NCBI GenBank assembly: GCA_900555015.1
Contig: USJL01000001.1
Span: forward strand, 62,001-126,000
DNA: 64,000 nucleotides
Reading direction: 5' to 3'
DNA from: an uncultured Oscillospiraceae bacterium
GTDB taxonomy: Bacteria; Bacillota; Clostridia; Oscillospirales; Acutalibacteraceae
Positions 6,485-50,985 of the stretch are shown here, piece by piece. The position numbers and the translations under genes are program-made. Numbering within the stretch: position 1 is the first letter of the stretch; each line of letters begins with the position of its first letter. Under the pieces are notes generated by a model, which saw only the letters and a program-made list of their open reading frames with translations, did not search any database and was not told the DNA's origin.

Positions 6485-7198
6485 ATGAGCACTCAATATA
6501 AACGCATTTTGTTAAAATTAAGCGGAGAGGTTCTTGCCGGTTCAAAGGGAACAGGCATTGATAATGAAACAGTTGTAAAAATTTGTAAATCAGTTAAAAA
6601 AGTTGCCGATTTAGGAGTTCAGGTTGGCATTGTAGTCGGCGGCGGAAACTTTTGGCGCGGCAGAACAAGCGAGGGTATGGACCGTGCAAGGGCAGACCAT
6701 ATCGGCATGCTTGCAACGGCAATGAATTCACTTGCACTTTGCGATGCACTTGAGCAGCTTGGCGCAGATGTAAGAGTTCAAACAGCTATTGAAATGAGGC
6801 AAATTGCCGAACCGTACATCAGAAATAAAGCAATTCGTCATTTTGAAAAAGGCAGAATTGTTATTTTCGGTTGCGGCACAGGTTCACCTTTCTTTTCAAC
6901 AGACACTGCTGCCGCTCTTCGCAGCGTTGAAATTAATGCAGATGCTTTGCTTAAAGCAACTAATGTTGACGGCGTTTATGATAAAGACCCGAATAAATAT
7001 GACGATGCGGTTAAGTTTGATACCGTTTCATTTAAAGAAGTTATTAACAGAGATTTAAAGGTTATGGATTCAACCGCATTTTCACTTTGTAAAGATAACG
7101 ATATGTCAATCGTTGTGTTTAACCTTGAGGAAGACCCTGAAAATGTTGTTAAAGCCGTTATGGGCGAACCTATCGGTACAGTTGTAAGTAATAATTAA
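6485..7198 (+). CDS. pyrH: UMP kinase
   Basis: Phosphorylates UMP to UDP with ATP, committing pyrimidine nucleotides to RNA, DNA and UDP-sugar synthesis. At 237 residues it has the normal length for the hexameric bacterial amino-acid-kinase-fold enzyme. Visible motifs include [22 protein letters not shown] and the nucleotide-binding region [26 protein letters not shown] precedes the ATG. It is the first gene of a long operon (pyrH-frr-uppS-cdsA-dxr-rseP-ispG-polC). The usual upstream rpsB-tsf pair is absent and the LRR gene is there instead. A promoter probably lies in the AT-rich stretch with TATAAT at 6458-6463, but I see no good -35 at 17 bp. Confidence 0.97.
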
Positions 7199-7212
7199 CG
7201 GAGGTTTTAGTA

Positions 7213-7767
7213 ATGGAAACTGTATTTAATAAAACGAAAGAAAAAATGGAAAAATGCCTTGATTCTTTAAACAGAGATTATAAGGCTGTTCGTGCAGGTC
7301 GTGCAAACCCTGCTATTTTAGACAGAGTAACGGTTGATTATTACGGCGTACCTACTCCGTTAAATCAAATGGCTGCAATCAGCGTTCCGGAACCGAGAAT
7401 GCTTATGATTCAACCGTGGGATGCAAGCACACTTAAAGAAATCGAAAAGGCAATTAACACTGCCGAAATCGGAATTAATCCAAGTAACGACGGTAAAGTT
7501 ATTCGTCTTGCTTTCCCTGCATTAACGGAAGAACGCAGAAAAGAACTTGTTAAAGATATTTCTAAGCGTGCAGAAGAAGGCAAGGTTGCAGTTCGCAACG
7601 TTCGCCGTGACGCTATGGATGATATTAAAAAGCTAAAAAAAGATAACCAGATTACAGAGGATGACCAAAAAGACGGAGAGAAAAAGCTTCAAGATATAAC
7701 AGACAGTTATATTAAACAAATTGAAGAAATGGAAAAAGCAAAAGAGCAGGAAGTTCTTTCAATTTAA
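7213..7767 (+). CDS. frr: Ribosome recycling factor
   Basis: With EF-G, splits the post-termination ribosome into subunits. At 184 residues it has the standard length. The conserved stretches KAVRAGRANPAILD and KVIRLAFPALTEERRKELVK are present, as is the long three-helix-bundle C-terminus rich in Lys and Glu. The gene lies 14 bp after pyrH with a GGAGG ribosome binding site, the usual pyrH-frr pairing in bacteria. Expression is presumably from the pyrH promoter. A GC-rich hairpin follows at 7783-7802. Confidence 0.97.
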   Translation: METVFNKTKEKMEKCLDSLNRDYKAVRAGRANPAILDRVTVDYYGVPTPLNQMAAISVPEPRMLMIQPWDASTLKEIEKAINTAEIGINPSNDGKVIRLAFPALTEERRKELVKDISKRAEEGKVAVRNVRRDAMDDIKKLKKDNQITEDDQKDGEKKLQDITDSYIKQIEEMEKAKEQEVLSI

Positions 7768-7782
7768 TTTTTCTAAAATAAA

Positions 7783-7802
7783 GGCGGGGGATTTCCTCCG
7801 CC
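7783..7802 (+). other. GC-rich hairpin between frr and uppS
   Basis: GGCGGGGG (7783-7790) can pair with CCTCCGCC (7795-7802) around a 4-nt loop. No clean T-run follows, so it is more likely a partial terminator or an mRNA-processing or stability element than a full stop. Confidence 0.5.
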
Positions 7803-7830
7803 GTTCTGTCATTTTAAAGGAGCAATAAAA

Positions 7831-8547
7831 ATGGCTATTTTTAATAAAAAAGAACAGGTAAAAACAGAATTTTCTCTTCTTCCGAAACATTTGGGCATAA
7901 TTATGGACGGTAACGGCAGATGGGCAAAAAAGCGCGGTTTGCCAAGAACCGCCGGTCATAAAGTGGGCGCCGATGTTTTTAAAAAGATTTCAAAAGAATG
8001 CGGCAGACTCGGTATTGAAGAAGTAACGTTTTATGCTTTTTCTACCGAAAATTGGAAGCGCCCCAAAGAAGAAGTTGACGCTTTAATGAAACTTTTTCAC
8101 GATTATTTAATTGAGGCAAAGGAAGATTTGGAAGAAAGCGGAAATATGCGTATTCACTTCGTAGGCGAGCGTGAGGGTATCAGCCCCGACCTTTTAAAAC
8201 TAATGGATGACGCTGTTGAAACCACTGATTCCAGAACAGGCACAATAATTAATCTTGCCGTTAATTACGGCGGCAGGCAGGAAATTGTTTCAGCCGTAAA
8301 TAAGCTTATTGCTTCAGGTAAAACATTAATTACGGAAGATGATATAAGCAATAATGTTTACACTGCGCCTGATTGCGATTTAATAATTCGCCCCAGCGGT
8401 GAAGAAAGACTTTCAAATTTCCTTTTGTGGCAGGCAGCTTACAGTGAGTTTTGGTACAGCGATGTTTTGTGGCCTGATTTTACAGAAAAGGATTTACACA
8501 GTGCACTTGCTGAATTTGAAAAACGAAACCGCAGATTCGGAGGATAA
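7831..8547 (+). CDS. uppS: Isoprenyl transferase (undecaprenyl diphosphate synthase)
   Basis: Condenses isopentenyl diphosphate units onto farnesyl diphosphate to build the C55 lipid carrier for peptidoglycan and other wall polymers. At 238 residues it has the cis-prenyltransferase length. Signature HLGIIMDGNGRWAKKRGLPR holds the catalytic Asp, and AFSTENWKRP and the C-terminal RPSGEERLSNFLLWQ motif bind substrate. AAAGGAG precedes the ATG. It is followed after 3 bp by cdsA. Together with dxr and ispG in the same operon, it places isoprenoid precursor synthesis and its main user in one transcript. Confidence 0.96.
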   Translation: MAIFNKKEQVKTEFSLLPKHLGIIMDGNGRWAKKRGLPRTAGHKVGADVFKKISKECGRLGIEEVTFYAFSTENWKRPKEEVDALMKLFHDYLIEAKEDLEESGNMRIHFVGEREGISPDLLKLMDDAVETTDSRTGTIINLAVNYGGRQEIVSAVNKLIASGKTLITEDDISNNVYTAPDCDLIIRPSGEERLSNFLLWQAAYSEFWYSDVLWPDFTEKDLHSALAEFEKRNRRFGG

Positions 8548-8550
8548 AAA

Positions 8551-9420
8551 ATGAAACAAAGAGTTATTACGGCGGCAGTATTACTTGCGTTACTCGCCAT
8601 TGTTGTTTGGCAAATAAATACACCTTTATTTGTTGTTGTTATTGCATTTCTTTCGGCTGTTGCCACAAATGAAATTATGAAATGCGCAAAAGTGAAAAAT
8701 AGATTTCTTTTAATTGCAGGCACTGCTTTTTCGGCTTGCGTTCCTTTTTTTGCAAGCGGCAAAGTTTTGCTTCCTATTGTAAGCGAAAGTACGTGGTCCG
8801 GTGTAATCGGTGCTGTTCCCGGTGTTGTTTACATAATTGCGGTTGTGCTTGCATTTTTGCTTGCTATGTTAAAGGGCTATTCTCACACAAGTTTTGAGGA
8901 TGTGGCAATTTCTGCTTTTGCTTCTGTTCTTGTTCCTTATGGATTTTCCGTGTTTATTCGCCTTCGTGATATGTTTGCGGATAATGAGCAATTCGGCATC
9001 TATTTAATTTTCTTCGGACTTATTTGTGCTTTAGGAACAGACAGCGGTGCTCAACTTGGCGGAATGGCGTTTGGCAAACATAAAATGAGTCCTAACATCA
9101 GCCCAAAGAAAACAGTGGAGGGTGCTGTATGCGGCTTGATTTTTGCCCTTGTATTAAATGTTGTGGCTATGGTGCTTTATAATAAGCTTGCCGCTGTTAC
9201 TTTAACAAAAACTCAAACAATCGTTCTTGCGTGCGTAAGCGTTCCTGTTTCGTTTATGGGTATGATGGGCGATTTAAGTGCGTCTGTTCTTAAAAGAAAC
9301 TTCGGCGTTAAAGATTTTGGAAAAATCTTTCCGGGGCACGGCGGAGTTATGGACAGATTTGATTCATCATTATTCACAATTCCGCTTACATATGCAGTTG
9401 CTTTAATTGCTTTTTGTTGA
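8551..9420 (+). CDS. cdsA: Phosphatidate cytidylyltransferase
   Basis: Makes CDP-diacylglycerol from CTP and phosphatidic acid, the branch point for phospholipid synthesis. It is a 289-residue protein with about eight hydrophobic segments. The family signature near the C-terminus is clear: MMGDLSASVLKRNFGVKDFG followed by PGHGGVMDRFDS. It sits 3 bp after uppS, and its stop codon overlaps the dxr ribosome binding site, indicating translational coupling. The earlier motif LGTDSGAQLGG matches the metal-binding region of the family. Confidence 0.95.
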   Translation: MKQRVITAAVLLALLAIVVWQINTPLFVVVIAFLSAVATNEIMKCAKVKNRFLLIAGTAFSACVPFFASGKVLLPIVSESTWSGVIGAVPGVVYIIAVVLAFLLAMLKGYSHTSFEDVAISAFASVLVPYGFSVFIRLRDMFADNEQFGIYLIFFGLICALGTDSGAQLGGMAFGKHKMSPNISPKKTVEGAVCGLIFALVLNVVAMVLYNKLAAVTLTKTQTIVLACVSVPVSFMGMMGDLSASVLKRNFGVKDFGKIFPGHGGVMDRFDSSLFTIPLTYAVALIAFC

Positions 9421-9430
9421 GGTGCTTGAT

Positions 9431-10579
9431 ATGAAAAAAATATCAATTTTAGGTTCAACCGGTTCAATAGGCGTTCAGTCTATTGATGTTTGCAGAATGC
9501 ACGGTTATGACGTTAAATGCTTAACGGCAAATACAAATGTTAATAAAATTGAACAGCAGGTCAGAGAGTTTCATCCTGAACTTGTTTGTATGATGAATGA
9601 GGATGCTGCTTCCGATTTAAAAACTAAAATTGCCGACACAAATACAAAAGTTGTTTGCGGTATGGACGGCCTTATTGAATGTGCTATATATGACGGCGCC
9701 GATATTACTCTTAATTCGGTTGTGGGAATGATTGGACTTCAACCTACATTAGAGGCAATTAAGGCTAAAAAAACAATCGCACTTGCCAATAAGGAAACAC
9801 TTGTCGCCGGCGGTCATCTTGTAACAAATGCCGCAAAAGAAAACGGTGTTTCGATTTTGCCTGTAGACAGCGAGCATTCGGCTATTTTTCAGGCAATGCA
9901 GGGCAGTCCGAGAAAAGAAGCTGTGAAAAAAATAATATTAACCGCATCCGGCGGACCGTTCTTTGGCAAAACTTTGTCAGAACTTGAAAACGTTACTCCG
10001 GCAGACGCTTTAAAACATCCAAATTGGGATATGGGCGCAAAAATAACCATAGATTCTGCCACAATGATGAATAAGGGCTTGGAGTTTATTGAAGCAAAAT
10101 GGCTTTTTGATATGCCTAATGAAGATATTGAAATCGTTGTTCACAGGGAATCGGTTGTTCATTCCGCTATAGTTTATCAGGATAATTCGGTTATTGCACA
10201 ACTTGGTGTGCCGGATATGAGAATCCCTATTCAGTATGCTCTTACTTATCCGGAGCGTGAGCCGAGCCCCGTGGCTCCTTTATCTCTTGCCGATTACGGT
10301 AAATTAACATTTTTTGAACCGGATTACGATACTTTTAAATGTATTAATGTTTGTAAAAATGCTATTGCAATGGGCGGTTTGCATCCTGCAGCAGCTAACG
10401 GTGCAAACGAAGAAAGCGTAAAACTTTTTCTTCATGGCAAAATTAAATTTACAGACATTGCATATCTTAATGAAGAGGCTATGCTTAAAGCTGCAGATGT
10501 GAAAGATTTTACATTGGCAGATGTGCTTGAAGCAGATAAACAGGCAAGAGAATTTGTAAGAAATACCGTTAATGCTTGA
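9431..10579 (+). CDS. dxr: 1-deoxy-D-xylulose 5-phosphate reductoisomerase
   Basis: Converts DXP to 2-C-methyl-D-erythritol 4-phosphate with NADPH, the first committed step of the MEP isoprenoid pathway. It is 382 residues from the ATG at 9431. That start is chosen because GAGGTG, which spans the cdsA stop, lies 6 bp upstream; an in-frame TTG at 9407 has no such site. Motifs seen: ILGSTGSIGVQSIDV (NADPH fold), LANKETLVAGG, LPVDSEHSAIFQ, SGGPF and TIDSATMMNKGLEFIEAKWL (metal and substrate). It is followed by rseP, as in most Firmicutes. Confidence 0.97.
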   Translation: MKKISILGSTGSIGVQSIDVCRMHGYDVKCLTANTNVNKIEQQVREFHPELVCMMNEDAASDLKTKIADTNTKVVCGMDGLIECAIYDGADITLNSVVGMIGLQPTLEAIKAKKTIALANKETLVAGGHLVTNAAKENGVSILPVDSEHSAIFQAMQGSPRKEAVKKIILTASGGPFFGKTLSELENVTPADALKHPNWDMGAKITIDSATMMNKGLEFIEAKWLFDMPNEDIEIVVHRESVVHSAIVYQDNSVIAQLGVPDMRIPIQYALTYPEREPSPVAPLSLADYGKLTFFEPDYDTFKCINVCKNAIAMGGLHPAAANGANEESVKLFLHGKIKFTDIAYLNEEAMLKAADVKDFTLADVLEADKQAREFVRNTVNA

Positions 10580-10603
10580 ATATAATCTTTAGGAGTGGTG
10601 AAT

Positions 10604-11638
10604 TTGACTTCTGTTTGGAGTTCGGTTTATCCCGTTTTAATTGCAATTTTATTTTTTGAATTAATAATAATTATTCACGAGGGCGGGCATTTTATTGCCG
10701 CCAAGTTAATGAAAATTCGTGTTAATGAATTTGCAATAGGTATGGGACCTAAAATAATTTCTTTTAAGAAAAAAGAAACTCAATATTCTTGGCGTCTTTT
10801 TCCGATAGGCGGTTATTGTGCTATGGAAGGGGAAAGCGAGGAATCCGAAGCAGACGGCTCTTTTTCCAAAAAAAGCGTGTGGGCAAGACTTTTTGTTGTG
10901 GTTGCCGGTGCGTTAATGAATCTAATTTTAGGTTTTATAATAATTTTCGGTTTAATTTGCAGCCAGTCAAGTATAGGCACAACCACGGTTGCAAAGTTTG
11001 ACGAAAATGCAGTCAGCTCATCATACGGCTTGCAGGCAGGCGATAAAATTAAAAGTATAGACGGTATGAAAGTTTATACAACAACAGATGTTCAAACAGG
11101 CTTATCACGTTCTAAAGACGGCAGTGTGGATATGACGGTTCAACGAAACGGAAAAACAGTTAATCTTTCCGTTACCTTTGATACCGAGGGTTATGAGGGA
11201 AAACAATATATTGTTATGGATTTTTGGCTTTTAGGTAAAGAAAAAACTCCGTTAAACGTTATTTCCAACGCAGGAAATGTTTTTGTTTCTTATGCAAGAA
11301 TGGTTTTCCTTTCTGTTTATGACCTTATAACCGGAACATACGGCGTTTCGGATTTAAGCGGCCCTGTTGGTGCCGTTTCGGTTGTATCAAGCGCAGTTAA
11401 AACAAATTTATATTCTGCGTTTAAAATGATGGCGTTGCTTACGGTAAATATAGGTTTGTTTAATTTGTTCCCGATTCCCGCTTTAGACGGCTGGCGGCTG
11501 TTTTTATTATTGGCAGAGGGAATTACAAAGAAAAAATTACCGGAAAAATGGGAGTACGGAATTAATGCGGCAGGTCTTGTTTTGTTGCTTGCCTTAATGG
11601 TATTTGTAACTTTTTCCGACATAACAAAGTTATTTTGA
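10604..11638 (+). CDS. rseP: RIP metalloprotease RseP (site-2 protease)
   Basis: Membrane zinc protease that cuts anti-sigma factors or signal-peptide remnants within the membrane. It has 344 residues with an N-terminal metal motif HEGGHFIAAK (HExxH), a central PDZ domain (SYGLQAGDKIKSIDG) and a C-terminal helix carrying the third ligand in PIPALDG. The residue after LDG is Trp, where most family members have Gly. TTG at 10604 is the preferred start because AGGAG at 10591-10595 is 8 bp upstream; GTG codons at 10595 and 10598 overlap or crowd that site. It lies between dxr and ispG in the operon; in Bacillus, proS occupies the next position. Confidence 0.92.
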   Translation: MTSVWSSVYPVLIAILFFELIIIIHEGGHFIAAKLMKIRVNEFAIGMGPKIISFKKKETQYSWRLFPIGGYCAMEGESEESEADGSFSKKSVWARLFVVVAGALMNLILGFIIIFGLICSQSSIGTTTVAKFDENAVSSSYGLQAGDKIKSIDGMKVYTTTDVQTGLSRSKDGSVDMTVQRNGKTVNLSVTFDTEGYEGKQYIVMDFWLLGKEKTPLNVISNAGNVFVSYARMVFLSVYDLITGTYGVSDLSGPVGAVSVVSSAVKTNLYSAFKMMALLTVNIGLFNLFPIPALDGWRLFLLLAEGITKKKLPEKWEYGINAAGLVLLLALMVFVTFSDITKLF

Positions 11639-11656
11639 TTTTTGCAGGTGGTAAAA

Positions 11657-12709
11657 ATGATTAAAAGAAGAGAAAGCAAAAAAATTAAATTAGGAAACAC
11701 ATATATCGGCGGCGATGCACCGATTCTTGTTCAGTCGATGCTTAACATTCCTGCCGATAATATTGAAGGTTCGGTTAATCAGGCAAAGGAACTTGCGGCA
11801 GCGGGTTGTCAGGTAATCAGGTTTGCCATTCCAAATGAAAAAGCACTTGATTTAATTGAACCTATAAAAGAGGCTGTGAATGTTCCTCTTGTTGCAGATA
11901 TTCATTTTGATTACAGACTTGCGCTTGGCGCCGCAGAAAGAGGAATTGATAAAATAAGAATTAATCCCGGCAATATCGGTGATGAATCGAGAGTTAAAGC
12001 GGTTGCAGATATTTGTAAGCAAAAGCAAATACCTATCAGAATCGGCGTTAACAGCGGCAGTCTTGAAAAAGATATTCTTGCAAAATACGGTTCTCCCACT
12101 CCCGAAGCAATGGTGGAATCTGCTTTGTATCACGCTTCCTTGCTGGAAAAATTTGATTTTGATGATATTGTTATTTCCATTAAATCTTCAAATGTTGTAA
12201 CTATGATAAATGCTTATGAGATTGCCGCAGAAAAATGCAATTATCCGCTTCATTTAGGCGTAACAGAGGCAGGCACAGAAAGAATGGGCATTATTAAATC
12301 GTCTGTCGGCATAGGTTCTTTGCTTGCCAAGGGCATTGGCGATACTATTCGTGTAAGTCTTTCCGATACACCTGTTAAAGAAGTTTTTGCCGCATTCGAT
12401 ATTCTTAAAGCAGTGGGCTTGAAAAATGATTGTCCGTATTTGATTTCCTGCCCAACATGCGGCAGAACAAAAATTGATTTAATCGGCTTGGCAAAGCAGG
12501 TTGAAGAAAGATTAAAAGATTGTAAAAAACCGATTAAAGTTGCGGTTATGGGTTGTATCGTTAACGGACCCGGCGAGGCGAAAGAGGCAGATATAGGAAT
12601 TGCAGGCGGCGACGGAAACGGACTTATATTTAAAAAAGGTGAAATTTTAAGGAAAGTGCCTGAAGATAAATTGCTTGATGAATTGATGAAAGAGATAGAT
12701 AAATTATAA
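11657..12709 (+). CDS. ispG: (E)-4-hydroxy-3-methylbut-2-enyl-diphosphate synthase
   Basis: 4Fe-4S enzyme of the MEP pathway that converts MEcPP to HMBPP. It has 350 residues from the ATG at 11657; AGGTGG lies 5 bp upstream, and an in-frame TTG at 11642 is rejected for lack of a site. The N-terminal TIM barrel includes PILVQSMLN, LVADIHFDYRLA and RINPGNIG. The C-terminal cluster domain carries SCPTCGRTK and MGCIVNGPGEAKEADIG, whose three cysteines hold the cluster. Its stop overlaps the polC start by one base. It and dxr put two MEP-pathway enzymes in this operon. Confidence 0.96.
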   Translation: MIKRRESKKIKLGNTYIGGDAPILVQSMLNIPADNIEGSVNQAKELAAAGCQVIRFAIPNEKALDLIEPIKEAVNVPLVADIHFDYRLALGAAERGIDKIRINPGNIGDESRVKAVADICKQKQIPIRIGVNSGSLEKDILAKYGSPTPEAMVESALYHASLLEKFDFDDIVISIKSSNVVTMINAYEIAAEKCNYPLHLGVTEAGTERMGIIKSSVGIGSLLAKGIGDTIRVSLSDTPVKEVFAAFDILKAVGLKNDCPYLISCPTCGRTKIDLIGLAKQVEERLKDCKKPIKVAVMGCIVNGPGEAKEADIGIAGGDGNGLIFKKGEILRKVPEDKLLDELMKEIDKL

Positions 12710-15700
12710 TGAATTTGTTTAAAGAATATTTTTCGGATTATGTAGATAATTTTCCCCTTTCAAGTTTGGGAAACGGTGAAATTACCCGCTTTGCAATCAG
12801 AAAAGAGGAAAGAGAACTTATTGTTGTTTTAAATCTCGGCGAATTGGTAGATTATTCAGTGTTTGCCGCTGCACAGGAAAATTTAAAGGCAAATATGAAT
12901 TTGAAAAAAGCAACAATTAAGCCACGTTACATAAGCGAACTTTTTGAAACTTCATATTTTGGCAGTATTGTTGAGTTTGTTAAAAAGCAAAATTCAGCTG
13001 CAAACGGATTCTTTGATGATGCCGATGTTGAAGTTAATAATAATGAATTAACCGTTTACTTAAAAAAAGGCGGAAAAGATATTTTACTTGCCCAAAAGGT
13101 AAACGAGGATATAGAAAATGTAATACTTGATTTGTTTGGCATTTCTTTTAAAATTTCTTTTGTGGAAACACAGGCTTTTGACATTGAAAAGGCTGTTAAA
13201 GAGGTTGTTGCACAAAAAAATGCACATGAAGAACAGGTTAAAGCAGAGCAGGCAAAAAATATTAAGCACACCCTTTTGGGCGACTTGCCTATTTATGAGG
13301 ATACGCAAAAAATTATTTTCGGCAGAAGTATTCGTGAAAAGCCAAAGCCGATGAATCAAGTGCAAATAGACGACGGCATTATTACCGTTTGGGGAGATGT
13401 TCTTAAAACAGACGTAAGAGATACCAAAAGGGGCGACAGCAAAATTTTCTCTTTTGATATTTCTGATTACACATCATCGCTAACATGTAAAATGTTTGAC
13501 AGTAACAAGGTTATTGAACCTGTTATTGATAAAATTGCAAATGCAAAAACGCTCATAGTAAGCGGCGGTTATCAGTATGATAAATTTGCAAACGAATATG
13601 TTTTAAGACCAAACAGTATTGCAACGGTTTTAAAAGCCGAAAAGGAAGACAATGCACCCGAAAAAAGAATAGAACTTCATATGCATACCTCTTTGTCTGA
13701 AATGGACGGAATTTCTTCTCCCAAATCACTTGTTAATCAGGCAATAAAATGGGGGCATAAGGCTGTTGCAATTACAGACCACGGCGTTGTTCAGGCTTTG
13801 CCGGAGGCATATGCAGCAGCAAAAGGCAAAATTAAACTTATTTTGGGAATGGAGGGCTATTTGGTTGATGACACTAAGTATCCCGATTTCATGAATATGA
13901 AATTAAATCAATTTAAACGTCATCATATTATTTTTCTTGTTAAGGAAGATACATCTATGGATGAATCTATTCCCAAGGAAGAAAGAAAGTACGGCAGAAA
14001 AAATCTTTACGAACTTATTTCTGCATCAAATGTTAAATATTTTAAAAACAGACCGCTTATTCCAAAATCTCTTCTTGCCAAAAAAAGGGCAGGCATTATT
14101 GTTGGTTCGGCTTGTGAACAGGGCGAAGTTTATCAAGCAATATTAGAGGGCGTAAGCGACGAAGAACTTGAAAAAATCGCTTCATTTTATGATTACCTTG
14201 AAATTCAGCCAAACGGCAACAATGAATTTATGCTCAGAACAAGTAATCAGGAATATGTGCTTAATAAGCGTGGCGAAGAAAAGAAAAACGTTTATTGGCG
14301 TGTTAACTCGGAAGAAGATTTAATTAACATAAATAAAAAAATCATTTCAGTTGCGGATAAATTGGGCAAGCTTACCGTTGCCACCGGCGACGTGCATTTT
14401 TTAAGTGAAAAAGACGCTAAATTCAGGGCTATTATTATGGCGTCAAAAGGTTTTGACGATGCTGATAATCAGGCACCGTTGTATTTTAAAACTACTGATG
14501 AAATGCTTGCCGATTTTGCATGGGCAGGAGACAGGGCAAAGGAATTTGTTGTAGACAATCCGCAAAAAATTGCTGATAGCATTATGGACGATATTCCGCC
14601 TATTCCTCCCGGAACGTTCCAACCGCATATTGACGGCGCAAATGAGGAACTTACGGAAAAATGCTGGAAAAGAGCAAAGGAATTGTACGGCGACCCTGTG
14701 CCGGAATATGTTGCCTCAAGACTTCAAAGAGAGCTTGATTCAATTATCGGGCACGGCTTTGGCGTTCTTTATGTTATTGCAAAACGTCTTGTTGAGGAAA
14801 GTGAAAGAAACGGCTATCTTGTAGGCTCAAGAGGTTCTGTAGGCTCTTCTTTTGCCGCTCATATGGGCGGTATTTCAGAGGTTAACCCTCTTGCACCACA
14901 CTACTATTGCAAAAAATGCAAGCATAGTGAATTTTTCTTAAACGGCGAATACGGTTCGGGATTTGATTTACCGCCTAAAAATTGCCCTAACTGCAATATT
15001 CCTATGAAAAGGGACGGTCATGAAATTCCTTTTGAAACATTCCTTGGATTTGACGGCGATAAAGAGCCTGATATTGACCTTAATTTCAGCGGTGAATATC
15101 AATCCCGTTCCCACAGATACACGGAAGAATTGTTTGGTAAGGAATATGTGTTTAAAGCCGGAACAATGGCAACAGTTGCGGATAAAACCGCTTACGGTTA
15201 TGTTAAAAAGTACCTTGAAGAAAGAGGTCTTAAAGTAACCCGTGCAGAAGAGGACAGGCTTACCGTTGGCTGTACGGGTATTAAAAGAACAACCGGTCAG
15301 CACCCGGGCGGAATGGTCGTTGTGCCGGATAAATATACGGTTGAAGATTTTACACCTATTCAATATCCTTCAAACGATGAAAAGAAAGGCACTTACACAA
15401 CTCACTTTGACTTTAAAAATTCTCTTCACGACACACTTTTAAAGCTTGATGAACTTGGTCATGATAATCCTACGCTTTATAAATATCTTGAGGATTCCAC
15501 AGGTATTCCTGTTATGGAAGTTGATTTGTCTGACCCTAAATTGTATCAGCTTATCACTTCTACAGAACCTATAGGTGTTTCTCCCGAAGATATAGATTGT
15601 TCAACAGGTACTCTTGCTATTCCTGAAATGGGTACACCGTTTGTAATCGGTATGCTTGAAGAAGCAAAGCCAAAAACATTTGCCGATTTGCTTCAAATTT

Positions 15701-16545
15701 CAGGCCTTTCTCACGGTACGGATGTTTGGCTTGGAAATGCACAAGAGCTTATTGATAACGGCACTTGCACAATTTCTCAGGTTATCGGCTGCCGTGATGA
15801 TATTATGACTTACCTTATTCATAAAACCGAAAAGTATGAAAAGGAAACCGGCAAGGAATCGCCTCTTTCAAAAAAAGATTGCTTTAAGATTATGGAATAT
15901 ACCCGTAAAGGTAAAGCACCAAAAGAATTGCCTCCTTATGAACAGGCAATGAAAACCGTAGGTGTTGAACAGTGGTATATTGATTCCTGTTATAAAATTA
16001 AATACATGTTCCCCAAGGCGCATGCTGCGGCTTATGTTATTGCCGCTCTTCGTCTTGCTTGGTATAAAATATATTATCCTCTTGATTTTTATGCGGCATA
16101 CTTTACTGTTCGCGGCGGCGCTATTGATGCTGTTTCCGCAGTGGCAGGTAAGGATGCGGTAAAAGCAAAAATGCTTGAATATCAGGAAAAGAAAAAAGCC
16201 GGCGGCGTTACGGCAAAAGATGATTCAACTTATGTTGTAAACCAAATTGTTATTGAAATGCTTGCAAGGGGAATTGAATTTTTACCTGTTGATATTTATA
16301 AATCGGATGCAAGAATTTATAAAATCGAAAACGGAAAAATTCGTTTGCCTTTCGGCGCTATTGACGGTATTGGTGAAAATGCGGCAAAAGCAATAGCACA
16401 GGCAAAGGATGACGGAAACGGCGAATTTATATCTTATGACGATTTAATGGCACGTGCCGGAATAGGCAGAAGCGTTGTTGACGCTCTTAAAGAAGCAGGC
16501 GCATTGGGTGATATGCCGGAATCAAGTCAAATTTCGTTGTTTTGA
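12709..16545 (+). CDS. polC: DNA polymerase III PolC-type alpha subunit lacking the exonuclease domain
   Basis: Replicative polymerase of low-GC Gram-positives. Domains in order: N-terminal domain; OB-fold (about 215-315); PHP domain (about 321-575); polymerase core with GYLVGSRGSVGSSF, a four-Cys zinc site (CKKCKHSEF...CPNC), catalytic Asp in EPDIDLNFSG (D788, D790) and LLKLDELGHD (D914); C-terminal clamp-binding tail ending SQISLF. At 1278 residues it is about 160 shorter than Bacillus PolC. The DEDDh proofreading exonuclease, normally inserted in the PHP domain, is replaced by a roughly 15-residue loop (about 388-404), and no D-x-E-x-TG motif appears elsewhere. All expected PHP ligands are present: H324, H326, D333, H358, E382, H405 or H406, C469, D561, H563. 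It overlaps ispG by 1 bp and is the last gene of the operon. Confidence 0.95.
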   Translation: MNLFKEYFSDYVDNFPLSSLGNGEITRFAIRKEERELIVVLNLGELVDYSVFAAAQENLKANMNLKKATIKPRYISELFETSYFGSIVEFVKKQNSAANGFFDDADVEVNNNELTVYLKKGGKDILLAQKVNEDIENVILDLFGISFKISFVETQAFDIEKAVKEVVAQKNAHEEQVKAEQAKNIKHTLLGDLPIYEDTQKIIFGRSIREKPKPMNQVQIDDGIITVWGDVLKTDVRDTKRGDSKIFSFDISDYTSSLTCKMFDSNKVIEPVIDKIANAKTLIVSGGYQYDKFANEYVLRPNSIATVLKAEKEDNAPEKRIELHMHTSLSEMDGISSPKSLVNQAIKWGHKAVAITDHGVVQALPEAYAAAKGKIKLILGMEGYLVDDTKYPDFMNMKLNQFKRHHIIFLVKEDTSMDESIPKEERKYGRKNLYELISASNVKYFKNRPLIPKSLLAKKRAGIIVGSACEQGEVYQAILEGVSDEELEKIASFYDYLEIQPNGNNEFMLRTSNQEYVLNKRGEEKKNVYWRVNSEEDLININKKIISVADKLGKLTVATGDVHFLSEKDAKFRAIIMASKGFDDADNQAPLYFKTTDEMLADFAWAGDRAKEFVVDNPQKIADSIMDDIPPIPPGTFQPHIDGANEELTEKCWKRAKELYGDPVPEYVASRLQRELDSIIGHGFGVLYVIAKRLVEESERNGYLVGSRGSVGSSFAAHMGGISEVNPLAPHYYCKKCKHSEFFLNGEYGSGFDLPPKNCPNCNIPMKRDGHEIPFETFLGFDGDKEPDIDLNFSGEYQSRSHRYTEELFGKEYVFKAGTMATVADKTAYGYVKKYLEERGLKVTRAEEDRLTVGCTGIKRTTGQHPGGMVVVPDKYTVEDFTPIQYPSNDEKKGTYTTHFDFKNSLHDTLLKLDELGHDNPTLYKYLEDSTGIPVMEVDLSDPKLYQLITSTEPIGVSPEDIDCSTGTLAIPEMGTPFVIGMLEEAKPKTFADLLQISGLSHGTDVWLGNAQELIDNGTCTISQVIGCRDDIMTYLIHKTEKYEKETGKESPLSKKDCFKIMEYTRKGKAPKELPPYEQAMKTVGVEQWYIDSCYKIKYMFPKAHAAAYVIAALRLAWYKIYYPLDFYAAYFTVRGGAIDAVSAVAGKDAVKAKMLEYQEKKKAGGVTAKDDSTYVVNQIVIEMLARGIEFLPVDIYKSDARIYKIENGKIRLPFGAIDGIGENAAKAIAQAKDDGNGEFISYDDLMARAGIGRSVVDALKEAGALGDMPESSQISLF

Positions 16546-16628: not shown

Positions 16629-18239
16629 ATGAAACGTTATGCAAAGCTTACTCCCCAGGGAAGCAGAGATTTGCTTTTTGAAGAATGTGATGACAGAAAG
16701 AATATTGAAACTGTTTTGTCTTCGCTTTATAAAGAAAACAATTATCGCAAAGTTATTACTCCTACTATTGAATATTTTGATGTGTTTGACAGTGATAACA
16801 TAGGCATTGAAGCTGAAGAAATGTATAAGCTTACAGACAGCTACGGCAGAACAACCGTTCTTCGCCCAGATAATACAATGCCTATTGCCCGCCTTGTTGC
16901 CACAAGACTTACAAAAAACGATTTTCCCGTTAGGTTATACTATAATCAAAACATTTTTGTAAGAAATAAGGCGCTTGCCGGCAGAACAGATGAAATTGCC
17001 CAAAGCGGTATTGAGTTTATCGGCGACGGTTCTCTTGAAGCTGATTTGGAAGTTCTTTCAATGGCTGTTGAAGCATTGAAAAGGGTTAATCTTAATTTTA
17101 AAATTGAAATCGGTCATGCCGGATTCTTTAATGCCGTTTTAAATAATATGAATATTACAAAAACGGAAAAAGCAGATATATGCAAACTTACAGAGGGAAA
17201 AAATTATTCCGCTTTAGGTGATTTGCTTAATAAAATAGGCGATACCGCAGAAACTGCCGTGCTTCATAAACTTCCACGCCTTTTTGGCGGAATTGAGGTG
17301 CTTGAAGTTGCTAAAGAACTTTATAAAAATGATGATGCAAATAAAGCACTTGATTATATTAAAACAGTTTATGAAAAACTTGTTGATATGGGCATGGAAA
17401 ACAGCGTAATGATAGATTTGGGGCTTGTTAACAGGTCAAATTATTACACAGGCATTATTTTCCGCGGTTATGCACAGGGTTCTGGGTTAACAATTCTTTC
17501 CGGCGGCAGATATGATAATCTTATAGGCGAATTCGGCACAGATGCTCCGGCAGTAGGTTTTGGCGTTAATGTTACGGCGTTAACAAACGCAGTTAACGAA
17601 ACAATAAATGTTGAGCGCCCAATCAGAATTGCATTAACAAAAGGCAGGCTTGAAAAAAGCTCCGTATCCTTGTTTAAAAAAATGGGCATTGATACAAGTG
17701 AACTTGAAAATAAAGGCAGAAGGCTTATTCTTCCTATAGGAAAATATGAGGCCGTTTTGTCAAAAGCACCGGATGTTATAACTTATGTTGAACACGGCGT
17801 TTGCGACATTGGCGTGGTAGGTAAAGATACTATTGTTGAACACGGTAATTCTTTTTATGAAGTTATTGATTTAAATATAGGTAAATGCAGATTTGCTCTT
17901 GCATGTCCTAAAGGAACAGACTTCTTTTCCGGTCATAAGCGCAAAACCGTTGCTTCAAAATATCCTAAGGTTGCTAAAGAATTTTTTAAATCAAAGGGTA
18001 TGGATGTTGATATAATTAAAATTGAGGGCAGTGTGGAATTGGCACCGCTTCTCGGCTTGGCAGACGGAATTGTTGATATTGTTGAAACAGGCTCAACTTT
18101 AAAAGAAAACGGACTTGAAGTTGTGGAAGAAATTTTGCCTATTTCAGCAAGAGTAATTGTTAATATGGCTTCAATGAAGTTAAGAAAAGATGAAATTGAA
18201 ACTTTTCTTGCAGATATGGAAAAAGCAAGTAAGGCGTGA
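16629..18239 (+). CDS. hisZG: Fused HisZ-HisG ATP phosphoribosyltransferase
   Basis: First and rate-controlling step of histidine synthesis: ATP plus PRPP gives phosphoribosyl-ATP. Residues 1 to about 325 are HisZ, the histidyl-tRNA-synthetase-like regulatory subunit (LTPQGSRDLLFEE, VLRPDNTMPIARLVATRL, LSGGRYDNLIGEFG). Residues about 331-536 are the short-form catalytic HisG (IRIALTKGRLEKSS, GVCDIGVVGKDTI, and the PRPP-binding ADGIVDIVETGSTL). The short HisG needs HisZ for activity and histidine feedback, so the fusion joins two obligate partners in a 1:1 ratio. The frame is open throughout, so this is a real fusion rather than two genes. It leads the operon and overlaps the hisD ribosome binding site. 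Confidence 0.93.
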   Translation: MKRYAKLTPQGSRDLLFEECDDRKNIETVLSSLYKENNYRKVITPTIEYFDVFDSDNIGIEAEEMYKLTDSYGRTTVLRPDNTMPIARLVATRLTKNDFPVRLYYNQNIFVRNKALAGRTDEIAQSGIEFIGDGSLEADLEVLSMAVEALKRVNLNFKIEIGHAGFFNAVLNNMNITKTEKADICKLTEGKNYSALGDLLNKIGDTAETAVLHKLPRLFGGIEVLEVAKELYKNDDANKALDYIKTVYEKLVDMGMENSVMIDLGLVNRSNYYTGIIFRGYAQGSGLTILSGGRYDNLIGEFGTDAPAVGFGVNVTALTNAVNETINVERPIRIALTKGRLEKSSVSLFKKMGIDTSELENKGRRLILPIGKYEAVLSKAPDVITYVEHGVCDIGVVGKDTIVEHGNSFYEVIDLNIGKCRFALACPKGTDFFSGHKRKTVASKYPKVAKEFFKSKGMDVDIIKIEGSVELAPLLGLADGIVDIVETGSTLKENGLEVVEEILPISARVIVNMASMKLRKDEIETFLADMEKASKA

Positions 18240-47538: not shown

Positions 47539-50500
47539 ATGTTTACTCATTTACACGTGCACACCGAATACTCGCTTCTTGACGGGGCTTGCAGAATTGA
47601 ACAACTTGTGCTTCGTGCAAAAGAACTTGGAATGCAGTCCCTTGCAATTACCGATCACGGTAATATGTACGGGGCTGTTGATTTTTATAAGGCTTGTAAA
47701 AAGCACGGAATTAAACCCATAATAGGCTGCGAGGTTTATGTTGCTCCGCGAACAAGATTTGATAAGGAAAAAGTGCTTGATAAGGAGTATAATCATTTAA
47801 TTCTTCTTTGTGAAAACGAACAGGGCTATAAAAATTTAATTAAGCTTGTTTCAAAAGCATATATTGAGGGATATTATTATAAACCCAGGGTTGACCATGA
47901 TATTCTTGAAAAATATCATCAGGGAATTATATGCCTTTCGGCTTGTTTGGCAGGGGAAATACCCCAGCGCCTTTTAGCTAAGGATTACGATGGGGCAAAA
48001 AATGTTGCCTTATGGTACCGTGATGTTTTTGGCGAAAATAATTATTTTTTAGAACTTCAAAATCACGGTTTAGATGAGCAAAAAAGAGTAAATGAGGGTT
48101 TGAAAAGACTATCGGCTGATACGGGTATACCTCTTGTTGCCACTAATGACGTGCATTATATCGAAAAGCAAGACAGCAAGGTGCAGCAGGTTCTTATTTG
48201 CATTGCCACAAACCATATTTTGGGCGAGGATACAGGACTTGAATTTCATTCAAACGAGTTTTATTTAAAAAGCGAGCAGGAAATGGCAACGATTTTTGCC
48301 GACACTCCACAGGCAATTTCAAATACGGAAAAAATTGCAAAAAGATGTAATTTTGATTTTGAATTCGGCAATACTAAATTGCCTTATTACGAAACGCCGA
48401 ATAATATGGACCATTTTGAGTATTTTAAGCAGTGTTGTTATTCGGGTATGAAAAAACGGTACGGTAATCCTCCTGATGAATATTATAAACGCCTGGAATA
48501 TGAGCTTAAAACCGTTAACGAAATGGGGTATACGGATTATTATTTAATCGTTGCGGATTTTGTTTCATTTGCAAAAAGAAACGGAATTCCCGTTGGTCCC
48601 GGCAGAGGCTCCGGTGCAGGCTCATTGGCGGCTTATTGCATAGGTATTACCGATTTAGACCCTATGAAATATAATCTGCTTTTTGAACGATTTTTAAATC
48701 CGGAAAGAGTTTCAATGCCGGATTTTGATATAGATTTCTGTTATGAACGCCGTGGCGAAGTTATTGATTATGTAACTCAAAAATACGGCGCCGACCATGT
48801 GGCTCAAATTGTAACTTTCGGCACATTGCAAACCCGTGCTGCTATTCGTGATGTTGGGCGTGTTATGGGTATGCCCTATGCTTCTGTTGACGCCGTGGCA
48901 AAACTTGTGCCAAGTGATTTTCATATAACTATTGACGGCGCGGTTCAAAAATCAAAAGAATTGCGTGAATTAATGGAGTCTAACAGTAATGTAAAGGAAC
49001 TTATAGAAACAGCTAAAAAAGTAGAGGGTATGCCGCGAAACACCAGCACTCATGCCGCAGGTGTTGTAATTACGTACGATGTTGTTTCATCTTATGTTCC
49101 TCTTGCCACAAATGACGATTTAATAGTTACTCAGTATATTATGACCTCGCTTGAAGAGCTTGGATTGTTGAAAATGGACTTTTTGGGCTTGCGAACATTA
49201 ACCGTTATTAATGACGCTTCAAAGCAGGCAGGGGTAGATATTGAAAAAATTTCTATTGATGACCCAAATGTATATAAATTGTTTGCTTCCGGTCAAACAG
49301 AAGGCATTTTCCAGTTTGAATCTGCAGGAATGAAGCAAATGCTTATGAATTTGAAGCCAACAAAATTAGAGCATTTAATCGCAGCCAATTCCCTTTACCG
49401 CCCGGGTCCGGCAAAACAAATAGATACTTTTGTAAATAATTCTCATCATCCTGAAAATATAACTTATGCCACTCCTTTGCTGGAGCCTGTATTAAAAGAT
49501 ACTTTCGGCTGTATAGTATATCAGGAACAAGTTATGCAAATTTTCCGTGTTTTGGCAGGGTATTCCTACGGCAGAGCCGATGTGGTGCGCAGGGCAATGA
49601 GTAAAAAGAAAAAAGATGTGCTTGAGGCAGAAAGAGTAACGTTTATTAAAGGCTGTGAAAAAAATAATATTTCCCGAGAAGTTGCAATCGGTATTTTTAA
49701 TCAAATCAGTGAATTTGCAAAGTATGCTTTTAATAAATCCCACGCTGCCTGCTATGCGCTTGTTGCATACAGAACTGCATATTTAAAATGTTATTATCCG
49801 GCAGAATTTATGGCTGCGCTTTTAACTTCTGTTCTTGATTCATCAAATAAAGTTGCCCGCTATATTGCTGAATGTAAGCGGCTTGGGTTAAAACTTGCCG
49901 TACCGGATGTTAATTCATCGGTTAAAGGCTTTTCGGCAAACGGCAAAACTATTAATTACGGTTTGTTGGGCATTAAAAATTTAGGCTCTGAATTTATTAA
50001 TGATATTATAAAAGAACGTGAAAACGGCAAATATAAAGACTTGTTTGATTTTTGTTCAAGACTTCAAACAAGCCATTTTAACCGCCGTGCAGTTGAAAGC
50101 CTTATCAAATGCGGTGCGCTTGATTCTTTGGGGGCAAACAGGCGTCAAATGCTTCAGGCGTTGCCTGCCCTTGTTTCAAATCTTGATGAGTATAGAAGAA
50201 AAACAATGTACGGTCAGGTTGGCTTTTTTGATTTAGGCGGAAGCGATAACAGTTTCGGCTTTGAATTTGATATGCCGGCTGTTGATGAATTTTCAAAATC
50301 CGAGCTTCTTAAAATGGAAAAGGAAATGACAGGACTTTATCTTTCAGGTCATCCTCTTGACAAGTATGATTCCGTTATTGAAAAATTAGGCTATGCAAAA
50401 ACATTTGATGTTCTTGAAGCCGGAAAAAATGATTTTTCAAGTTTAAAAGACGGAAGCAAGGTGATTTTGTGCGGCATAATTTCACGCATAACAATTAAAC

Positions 50501-50985
50501 AAACAAAAAGCGGAAAAAATATGGCGTTTGTTTTGCTTGAAGATATGTCCGGCAGTGTGGAAGTTATTGTATTTCCCAATACACTTGAAAAGTATGCTCA
50601 ATATATACGAAACGGCGGAGTAATGACCGTAAGCGGCACGATTTCCTGTGAGGAGGAAAAGGATTCAAAAATTTTGGCAGACGTAATATTCGGTGCACCT
50701 AATGAAAACAGTATGCCGGCTCGAAAAGCAGCTCCGGCACAAAATTTAAAAAAGTCAAAAAGAACAGGTTTGTTTTTAAGGTTTTCATCTGAAAATGATA
50801 AAAATATTATTGCTGCCAAAGATTATATAGAACAAAATAAGGGCGATTTACCTGTGTATTTTTATTATCTGAATACAAAAAAATATGTTCGCTTAAACAA
50901 TCAATTTTGCGTTTCGGGCAATAAAATGTTTATTGACGGGTTAAAATCTTTATTGGGCAGTGAAAATGTTGCTCTTATTTTATAA
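47539..50985 (+). CDS. dnaE: DNA polymerase III alpha subunit DnaE
   Basis: Second replicative C-family polymerase, 1148 residues. PHP domain at the N-terminus with FTHLHVHTEYSLLDG, ITDHGNMYG, GCEVYV, YNHLILL, LSACLAGEIP and TNDVHY, so all metal ligands appear intact. Polymerase core has PVGPGRGSGAGSLAAYC, the catalytic MPDFDIDFCYERRG, and LLKMDFLGLRTLTV. Tandem HhH and a C-terminal OB-fold (KVILCGIISRITIKQTKSGK) follow. In Bacillus DnaE extends primers before PolC takes over. It is the partner of the exonuclease-less PolC at 12709. pfkA follows with its own promoter. Confidence 0.96.
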   Translation: MFTHLHVHTEYSLLDGACRIEQLVLRAKELGMQSLAITDHGNMYGAVDFYKACKKHGIKPIIGCEVYVAPRTRFDKEKVLDKEYNHLILLCENEQGYKNLIKLVSKAYIEGYYYKPRVDHDILEKYHQGIICLSACLAGEIPQRLLAKDYDGAKNVALWYRDVFGENNYFLELQNHGLDEQKRVNEGLKRLSADTGIPLVATNDVHYIEKQDSKVQQVLICIATNHILGEDTGLEFHSNEFYLKSEQEMATIFADTPQAISNTEKIAKRCNFDFEFGNTKLPYYETPNNMDHFEYFKQCCYSGMKKRYGNPPDEYYKRLEYELKTVNEMGYTDYYLIVADFVSFAKRNGIPVGPGRGSGAGSLAAYCIGITDLDPMKYNLLFERFLNPERVSMPDFDIDFCYERRGEVIDYVTQKYGADHVAQIVTFGTLQTRAAIRDVGRVMGMPYASVDAVAKLVPSDFHITIDGAVQKSKELRELMESNSNVKELIETAKKVEGMPRNTSTHAAGVVITYDVVSSYVPLATNDDLIVTQYIMTSLEELGLLKMDFLGLRTLTVINDASKQAGVDIEKISIDDPNVYKLFASGQTEGIFQFESAGMKQMLMNLKPTKLEHLIAANSLYRPGPAKQIDTFVNNSHHPENITYATPLLEPVLKDTFGCIVYQEQVMQIFRVLAGYSYGRADVVRRAMSKKKKDVLEAERVTFIKGCEKNNISREVAIGIFNQISEFAKYAFNKSHAACYALVAYRTAYLKCYYPAEFMAALLTSVLDSSNKVARYIAECKRLGLKLAVPDVNSSVKGFSANGKTINYGLLGIKNLGSEFINDIIKERENGKYKDLFDFCSRLQTSHFNRRAVESLIKCGALDSLGANRRQMLQALPALVSNLDEYRRKTMYGQVGFFDLGGSDNSFGFEFDMPAVDEFSKSELLKMEKEMTGLYLSGHPLDKYDSVIEKLGYAKTFDVLEAGKNDFSSLKDGSKVILCGIISRITIKQTKSGKNMAFVLLEDMSGSVEVIVFPNTLEKYAQYIRNGGVMTVSGTISCEEEKDSKILADVIFGAPNENSMPARKAAPAQNLKKSKRTGLFLRFSSENDKNIIAAKDYIEQNKGDLPVYFYYLNTKKYVRLNNQFCVSGNKMFIDGLKSLLGSENVALIL

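Follow-up and report, generated by a model that had tools for sequence, protein, structure and literature searches.

The window analysed here, a stretch of 64,000 nucleotides, encodes the cell's housekeeping PolC, whose lineage appears to have deleted the DEDDh exonuclease from the loop of the PHP domain while keeping the nine-ligand metal site. The PHP domain itself probably proofreads for this polymerase. The sequence shows the deletion and the complete ligand set; a survey of related genomes showed that the deletion did not arise just once and found no general replacement enzyme.

A Full-Length PolC without the DEDDh Insertion

The polC gene (table 1) has the coordinates, length, and frame given in an earlier note on this DNA. 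Its product exceeds the cut-offs of the PolC models TIGR01405 (1249.4 bits against 1043.45) and NF001688 (1377 against 873), and has the PolC-type OB domain ahead of PHP and the C-terminal clamp motif. The polymerase, zinc finger, and clamp tail are normal, as had been claimed: the cysteines, PDIDL, and QISLF are all present, and PDIDLNF is presumably the catalytic polymerase motif. By Pfam, PHP forms a single stretch (residues 322-494), accompanied by Pol3 alpha, finger, and HHH_6 matches, and the search of the 1278-aa protein gave no match to PF00929 (RNase_T). The DEDDh insertion typical of PolC is absent from PHP, which places the protein in the exonuclease-less subgroup; the uninterrupted PHP, the presence of DnaE1, and the Clostridia-type genome (the taxon being taken from relatives) are features of this subgroup as well.

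Table 1. Features of the polC region and of the second C-family polymerase gene, in window positions
Feature	Position	Strand	Evidence
pyrH-like amino acid kinase family gene, frr, uppS, cdsA, dxr, rseP, ispG, directly upstream of polC	6485..12709	+	Pfam, gene listing
polC, PolC-type DNA polymerase III alpha subunit, 1278 aa, no DEDDh insertion	12709..16545	+	ORF, Pfam, NCBIfam, structure alignment
N-terminal domain II (PF11490), residues 83-182	12955..13254	+	Pfam
OB domain, residues 236-304	13414..13620	+	22.3 bits, below Pfam cut-off of 27; region aligns with PolC 3f2b
PHP domain, nine metal ligands	13672..14406	+	Pfam, alignment, model of residues 215-640
19-residue loop, residues 386-404, at exonuclease site of other PolCs	13864..13920	+	Alignment
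Zinc-finger cysteine pairs CKKC, CPNC	14902..15003	+	Sequence
Polymerase motif PDIDLNF	15067..15087	+	Aligns with PolC 3f2b and 9qpc
C-terminal clamp-binding type motif QISLF	16528..16542	+	Sequence
dnaE, second C-family polymerase, PHP ligands 9/9	47539..50985	+	NF005298 over cut-off

Comparison with PolC structures, including the Geobacillus-type alignment that the earlier note had proposed, bears out its claim that PHP is uninterrupted and the exonuclease missing. Against the full-length PolC 9qpc, the alignment stops at residue 389 of the window PolC (432 in 9qpc) and resumes at 427 (649), a net shortfall of about 180 residues. Residues 220-1278 align in one stretch with the exonuclease-deleted construct 3f2b, from which the exonuclease was removed for crystallization (PMC12592400). 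The nine PHP ligands are H324, H326, D333, H358, E382, H406, C469, D561, and H563, matching the pattern HHDHEH[C/H]DH of PHP-exonucleases such as Mtb DnaE1. All had been listed before, the sixth as either H405 or H406; the alignment assigns it to H406. The short junction is likewise present, but what had been read as about 15 residues (388-404) becomes a 19-residue loop (386-404) when counted as in DnaE. In an AlphaFold model of residues 215-640 (mean pLDDT 89.4), strands flank this loop on both sides, and the fold is continuous through the junction at high confidence. The modeled fragment matches PolC 3f2b and DnaE structures.

The genes from the pyrH-like kinase gene to ispG upstream of polC form a housekeeping neighborhood, the usual one for polC, and the window PolC is the cell's housekeeping PolC. 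DnaE, encoded further downstream, keeps its PHP set, as the earlier note stated. The same nine DnaE ligands are found in 31/31 cases (30 genomes plus the window), whatever their PolC has lost. Following polC, a 536-aa ORF at 16629-18239 encodes a HisZ-HisG fusion, with TIGR00443 (residues 13-323) and TIGR00070 (332-511) both over cut-off, and is followed by a histidinol dehydrogenase gene.

An assembly error, which could have removed the insertion, is ruled out: other contigs encode a near-identical protein, and close relatives lack the insertion too. Protein P0002, 99% identical to the window PolC and of the same length (1278 aa), is found on three contigs, and none of the 120 best-scoring homologues (out of 7995) has PF00929. 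We also scanned genome contigs with window-PolC peptides, one of which lies in the loop, a choice that favors exonuclease-less relatives; 80 loci were kept, with best segments 48-90% identical to the window PolC. Among the named relatives are the cultured Eubacterium coprostanoligenes ATCC 51222 (L034), whose exonuclease-less PolC is 69% identical, and, from the Oscillospiraceae and Ruminococcaceae, several metagenome-assembled genomes (MAGs). No D-x-E-T/F-TG motif occurs in the ORFs of these 80 loci, three of which do not reach the whole region. Aligned ORFs were obtained for 77 of the 80, and 74 cover the whole PHP site: the insertion is absent from all 74, and the ligand set is complete in 73. 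The window gene is a well-formed, full-length member of a known exonuclease-less PolC variant.

Repeated Loss and Decay of the PolC Exonuclease

As the earlier note had suggested, we surveyed the PolC of related Clostridia and found that the deletion recurs. The sample comprised 293 genomes of the class of E. coprostanoligenes, 273 with a PolC match at 1e-100; 151 PolC ORFs were read residue by residue (two from genome G270), and the others were classed as exonuclease-containing from match coordinates and frame length. The exonuclease is deleted in 45 genomes, the insert is degenerate, eroded, or replaced in 14, and 205 are exonuclease-containing (91 rows read residue by residue, the rest classed from coordinates). 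Nine fragmentary genomes stand outside these counts; since the junction is covered and free of an insert in G191, which is among the nine, 45 is a lower bound. The deleted share, 45/273 or 16%, is also the figure that Timinskas et al. (2013; PMC3919608) give for systems combining PolC and DnaE1; they report the typical architecture for 86% of PolCs and an absence of the insertion for 6%. The two PolC genes of G270 (L145 and L160) are different and both exonuclease-less. In two other PolCs, of 1592-1648 aa (L107 and L108), the query has two matches to the OB region, as if a segment had been duplicated.

The deletion had more than one origin. Trees were built on the core polymerase, leaving out PHP and the exonuclease region. 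Holding the exonuclease-deleted rows together as one clade was rejected by the AU test on 56 hand-picked rows (p 3.7e-84; 11 changes), as was holding all exonuclease-inactive rows together (p 1.4e-54), which rules out a single loss. The linkers at the deletion site differ in length and sequence between clades. G001 apart, no exonuclease-less PolC in the sampled trees is as near to the window PolC as the exonuclease-containing ones of G294, G263, and G218. The exact number of losses is soft, because the trees come from FastTree or quick searches and have long branches: seven changes of state were counted on a first 120-row tree, in which one row (L182) was mis-classed, and 9 to 15 on later ones.

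In another 13 genomes of the class, PolC has an insert of more than 120 residues with a broken DEDDh set, and all nine PHP ligands. The insert is enlarged to 296-355 residues in ten of these (G056, G080, G125, G144, G179, G213, G229, G258, G274, and G289) and has 228 residues in G196; in G065 and G089, it has 158-169 residues and is of doubtful origin. The PolC of G026 carries a 61-residue linker in place of the exonuclease. The ExoI region reads SIRRNGDD or AIRTTGKD in the enlarged group versus FDIETTG in active exonucleases. When the degenerate domain is stripped of its PHP flanks and its profile is compared one-against-one with the active exonuclease, the two nevertheless align over the length of the domain (93%, E 3.6e-7); these figures supersede those obtained with the conserved flanks included (98%, E 1.6e-13). 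The G196 insert alone matches the active exonuclease at E 6e-8, the only clear match in single-sequence searches. To judge from these sequences, the exonuclease persists in degenerate form, devoid of catalytic residues, in a clade of the Saccharofermentans type. Its named homologues are from Saccharofermentans sp. and the Ruminococcaceae bacteria YAD3003, KH2T8, and YRB3002. PF00929 is absent from all 120 listed homologues of this clade, and 103 of them have nine PHP ligands; two are incomplete, and 15 differ at the sixth column only, each with the expected YH[IV]I histidine visible despite the mismatch in the alignment. The PolCs of the clade are rows L217, L222, and L224-L232 and proteins P0122-P0241. 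Like the window PolC, these proteins lack the DEDDh residues and keep the nine PHP ligands; unlike it, they retain the inserted domain, which is enlarged to 296-355 residues in ten of the eleven. The clade would seem to contradict a 2026 statement that PHP and not DnaQ is the site that becomes inactivated. Our literature search found no paper naming a degenerate-exonuclease PolC clade.

The Two Sites and the Candidate Proofreaders

We added 87 PolCs from a phylum-level sample (277 genomes with matches), which brought the set to 239 rows after removal of duplicate loci, of L184, L246, and L197, and of repeats of G217, G062, and G040. An active exonuclease accompanies a complete PHP site in 133 rows and an altered one in 18; the exonuclease is deleted in 75 rows and degenerate in 13, and all 88 of these have nine PHP ligands. 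No row lacks both sites. The five DEDDh residues are complete in each of the 18 PHP-altered PolCs, nine of which differ at several ligands; the other nine carry D561N only. The latter group, with DEDDh intact and the eighth ligand changed from D to N, comprises L302, L348, L350, L354, L363-L366, and L368. In Mtb DnaE1, D226N abolishes the PHP exonuclease (PMC5636811). D561N appears to be the same kind of change, the equivalence of the two positions following from the order of the ligands.

The either-or pattern gives a Fisher p of 2.1e-4 over the 239 rows, which are not independent by kinship. The PHP-altering events number about three on the tree, and three randomly placed events miss all exonuclease-lost rows in 24% of trials; an independent-pairs test had no power. 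The pattern is not significant once kinship is allowed for, so statistical complementarity of the two sites was rejected and only the pattern retained. Outside the 239 rows, we noted one exception, L067 (CANRMJ010000048.1). This PolC is exonuclease-less, carries H358Y and D561N, and is a divergent second copy in a MAG that has a normal one as well (L047). It is the sole exonuclease-less PolC seen with an altered PHP. Ligand conservation alone is no proof of proofreading, because 133/151 exonuclease-active PolCs also have nine ligands.

If a separate DnaQ/KapD-like DEDDh exonuclease proofread for PolC in trans, which we consider quite improbable, the best candidate would be a KapD-like protein of roughly 290 aa with a zinc-ribbon-like tail. 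The search for a stand-alone exonuclease proposed in the earlier note found it in all 27 window-clade genomes searched, with the DEDDh residues intact in the four aligned (L082, L083, L086, and L087), although these four fall short of the cut-offs of all NCBIfam models listed. This protein does not look like a replacement because the family is also present in five of seven exonuclease-containing neighbors; within the window clade, it might nonetheless act as one. It occurs in 3/10 genomes of other exonuclease-deleted clades (two of eight G genomes and, in two pieces, L080; none in L074) and in neither of two more distant exonuclease-containing genomes, and its distribution follows descent, not exonuclease loss. 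There is no RNase_T match at E 0.001 in 30 of the 45 exonuclease-deleted genomes, which may be incomplete. RNase_T beyond PolC's own domain is rarer in exonuclease-deleted (15/45) than in exonuclease-containing genomes (112/205; Fisher p 0.013, uncorrected for kinship), whereas replacement would predict the reverse. The DnaQ and KapD proteins do not behave like partners gained upon loss of the PolC domain, and neither survey supports a displaced PolC exonuclease gene. DnaQ in trans, one of the options that the earlier note had left open, is disfavored as a general answer; another, proofreading by PHP, would fit best.

Two further explanations were considered. PolC might be a minor polymerase, with DnaE1 and its own PHP doing the bulk of copying, so that PolC proofreading is dispensable and its PHP is kept for folding. 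The complete DnaE ligand sets agree with this idea, a division of roles between PolC and DnaE1 is raised by Timinskas et al. (2013; PMC3919608), and PHP ligand mutants of the Mtb enzyme are less stable (PMC5636811). We nevertheless think it unlikely: the window PolC retains its polymerase and clamp motifs and its housekeeping neighborhood, and a purely structural PHP would give no reason to expect a complete set of nine ligands, the structural role of the Escherichia coli PHP having persisted after the loss of several (PMC3666897). Finally, proofreading by PolC might really be reduced, as in the third option of the earlier note, and mismatch repair carry the load. MutS is over cut-off in all 64 genomes with a deleted, degenerate, or replaced PolC exonuclease; 11 of the 14 control genomes have a MutS over cut-off too, so that it does not discriminate, and reduced proofreading would not need the PHP ligands to be kept. 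We regard this last explanation as very improbable.

Probable Proofreading by PHP and Its Precedents

The reading that we favor is proofreading by the PHP domain of PolC itself, as in mycobacterial DnaE1. The lineage of this enzyme deleted the DEDDh domain from the PHP loop and kept the nine-ligand site; the short loop, like that of DnaE1, would let the 3' end of a mispaired primer reach the zinc site. The route to the PHP site of Mtb DnaE1 is lined by a loop at the position where PolC carries its exonuclease, and this loop has 9 residues in E. coli DnaE, 18 in Taq, and 29 in Mtb (PMC5636811). The loops of exonuclease-deleted PolCs have 10-26 residues in 74 of the 75 rows. Proofreading by PHP is the most likely reading because the short loop resembles the DnaE1 loop that gives the primer 3' end access to the zinc site. 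The window PolC would accordingly be expected to bind zinc, to act as a nuclease, and to receive the primer end. It shares with Mtb DnaE1 the nine-ligand site and a loop free of a DEDDh domain; it differs in that the latter has the DnaE architecture, a 29-residue loop, and a demonstrated nuclease, which Mg2+ at millimolar concentration inhibits (PMC5636811).

PHP proofreading has been demonstrated in a few DnaE polymerases. It was suggested for Sporomusa PolC1 from its ligands (PMC4632017), and Timinskas et al. (2013; PMC3919608) ask whether it is widespread, noting conserved sites in PolC. As a counter-point, the PHP of Geobacillus kaustophilus PolC shows no exonuclease activity (PMC5636811); one of its ligands is changed, whereas the window PolC has all nine. 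The Geobacillus and Enterococcus PolCs (3f2b and 9qpc) have the same fold as the modeled fragment, which is 34% and 25% identical to them, respectively, but the native enzymes contain the DEDDh exonuclease that the window PolC lacks. Further literature used is found in PMC12926913, PMC7694242, and PMC3656037. Within the literature searched, no assay turned up for a PolC that lacks the DEDDh domain but has its PHP intact.

The earlier note rightly suspected that such PolCs had been described: those of Clostridia and Negativicutes were published by Timinskas et al. (2013; PMC3919608). As presented in the parts of that paper available to us, they have the OB, an uninterrupted PHP, Pol3, and (HhH)2, occur in genomes with DnaE1, and differ from the window PolC in nothing essential. 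Relative to that account, the repeated origin, the forms with a degenerate exonuclease, and the finding that no general trans exonuclease accompanies the loss appear to be additions. We see about even chances for a broader proposal, that Clostridia reversed the usual replacement of PHP by DnaQ several times, the DEDDh domain being lost or inactivated and PHP proofreading resumed, with two interchangeable sites of which only one is needed. If so, genomes without an RNase_T protein would replicate with PHP as the only Pol III proofreader. With a loss that is widespread and repeated, a degenerate clade, and no general replacement, PHP proofreading in PolC can be tested directly at the bench: natural PolCs without DEDDh make an engineered deletion unnecessary, and the degenerate clade provides a second test.

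The RNase_T insertion should not be used to define PolC. A 2025 study of how ibezapolstat spares gut Oscillospiraceae and Lachnospiraceae kept, according to its methods, only PolC sequences with this insertion (PMC11963600), a filter that a PolC like that of the window would fail.
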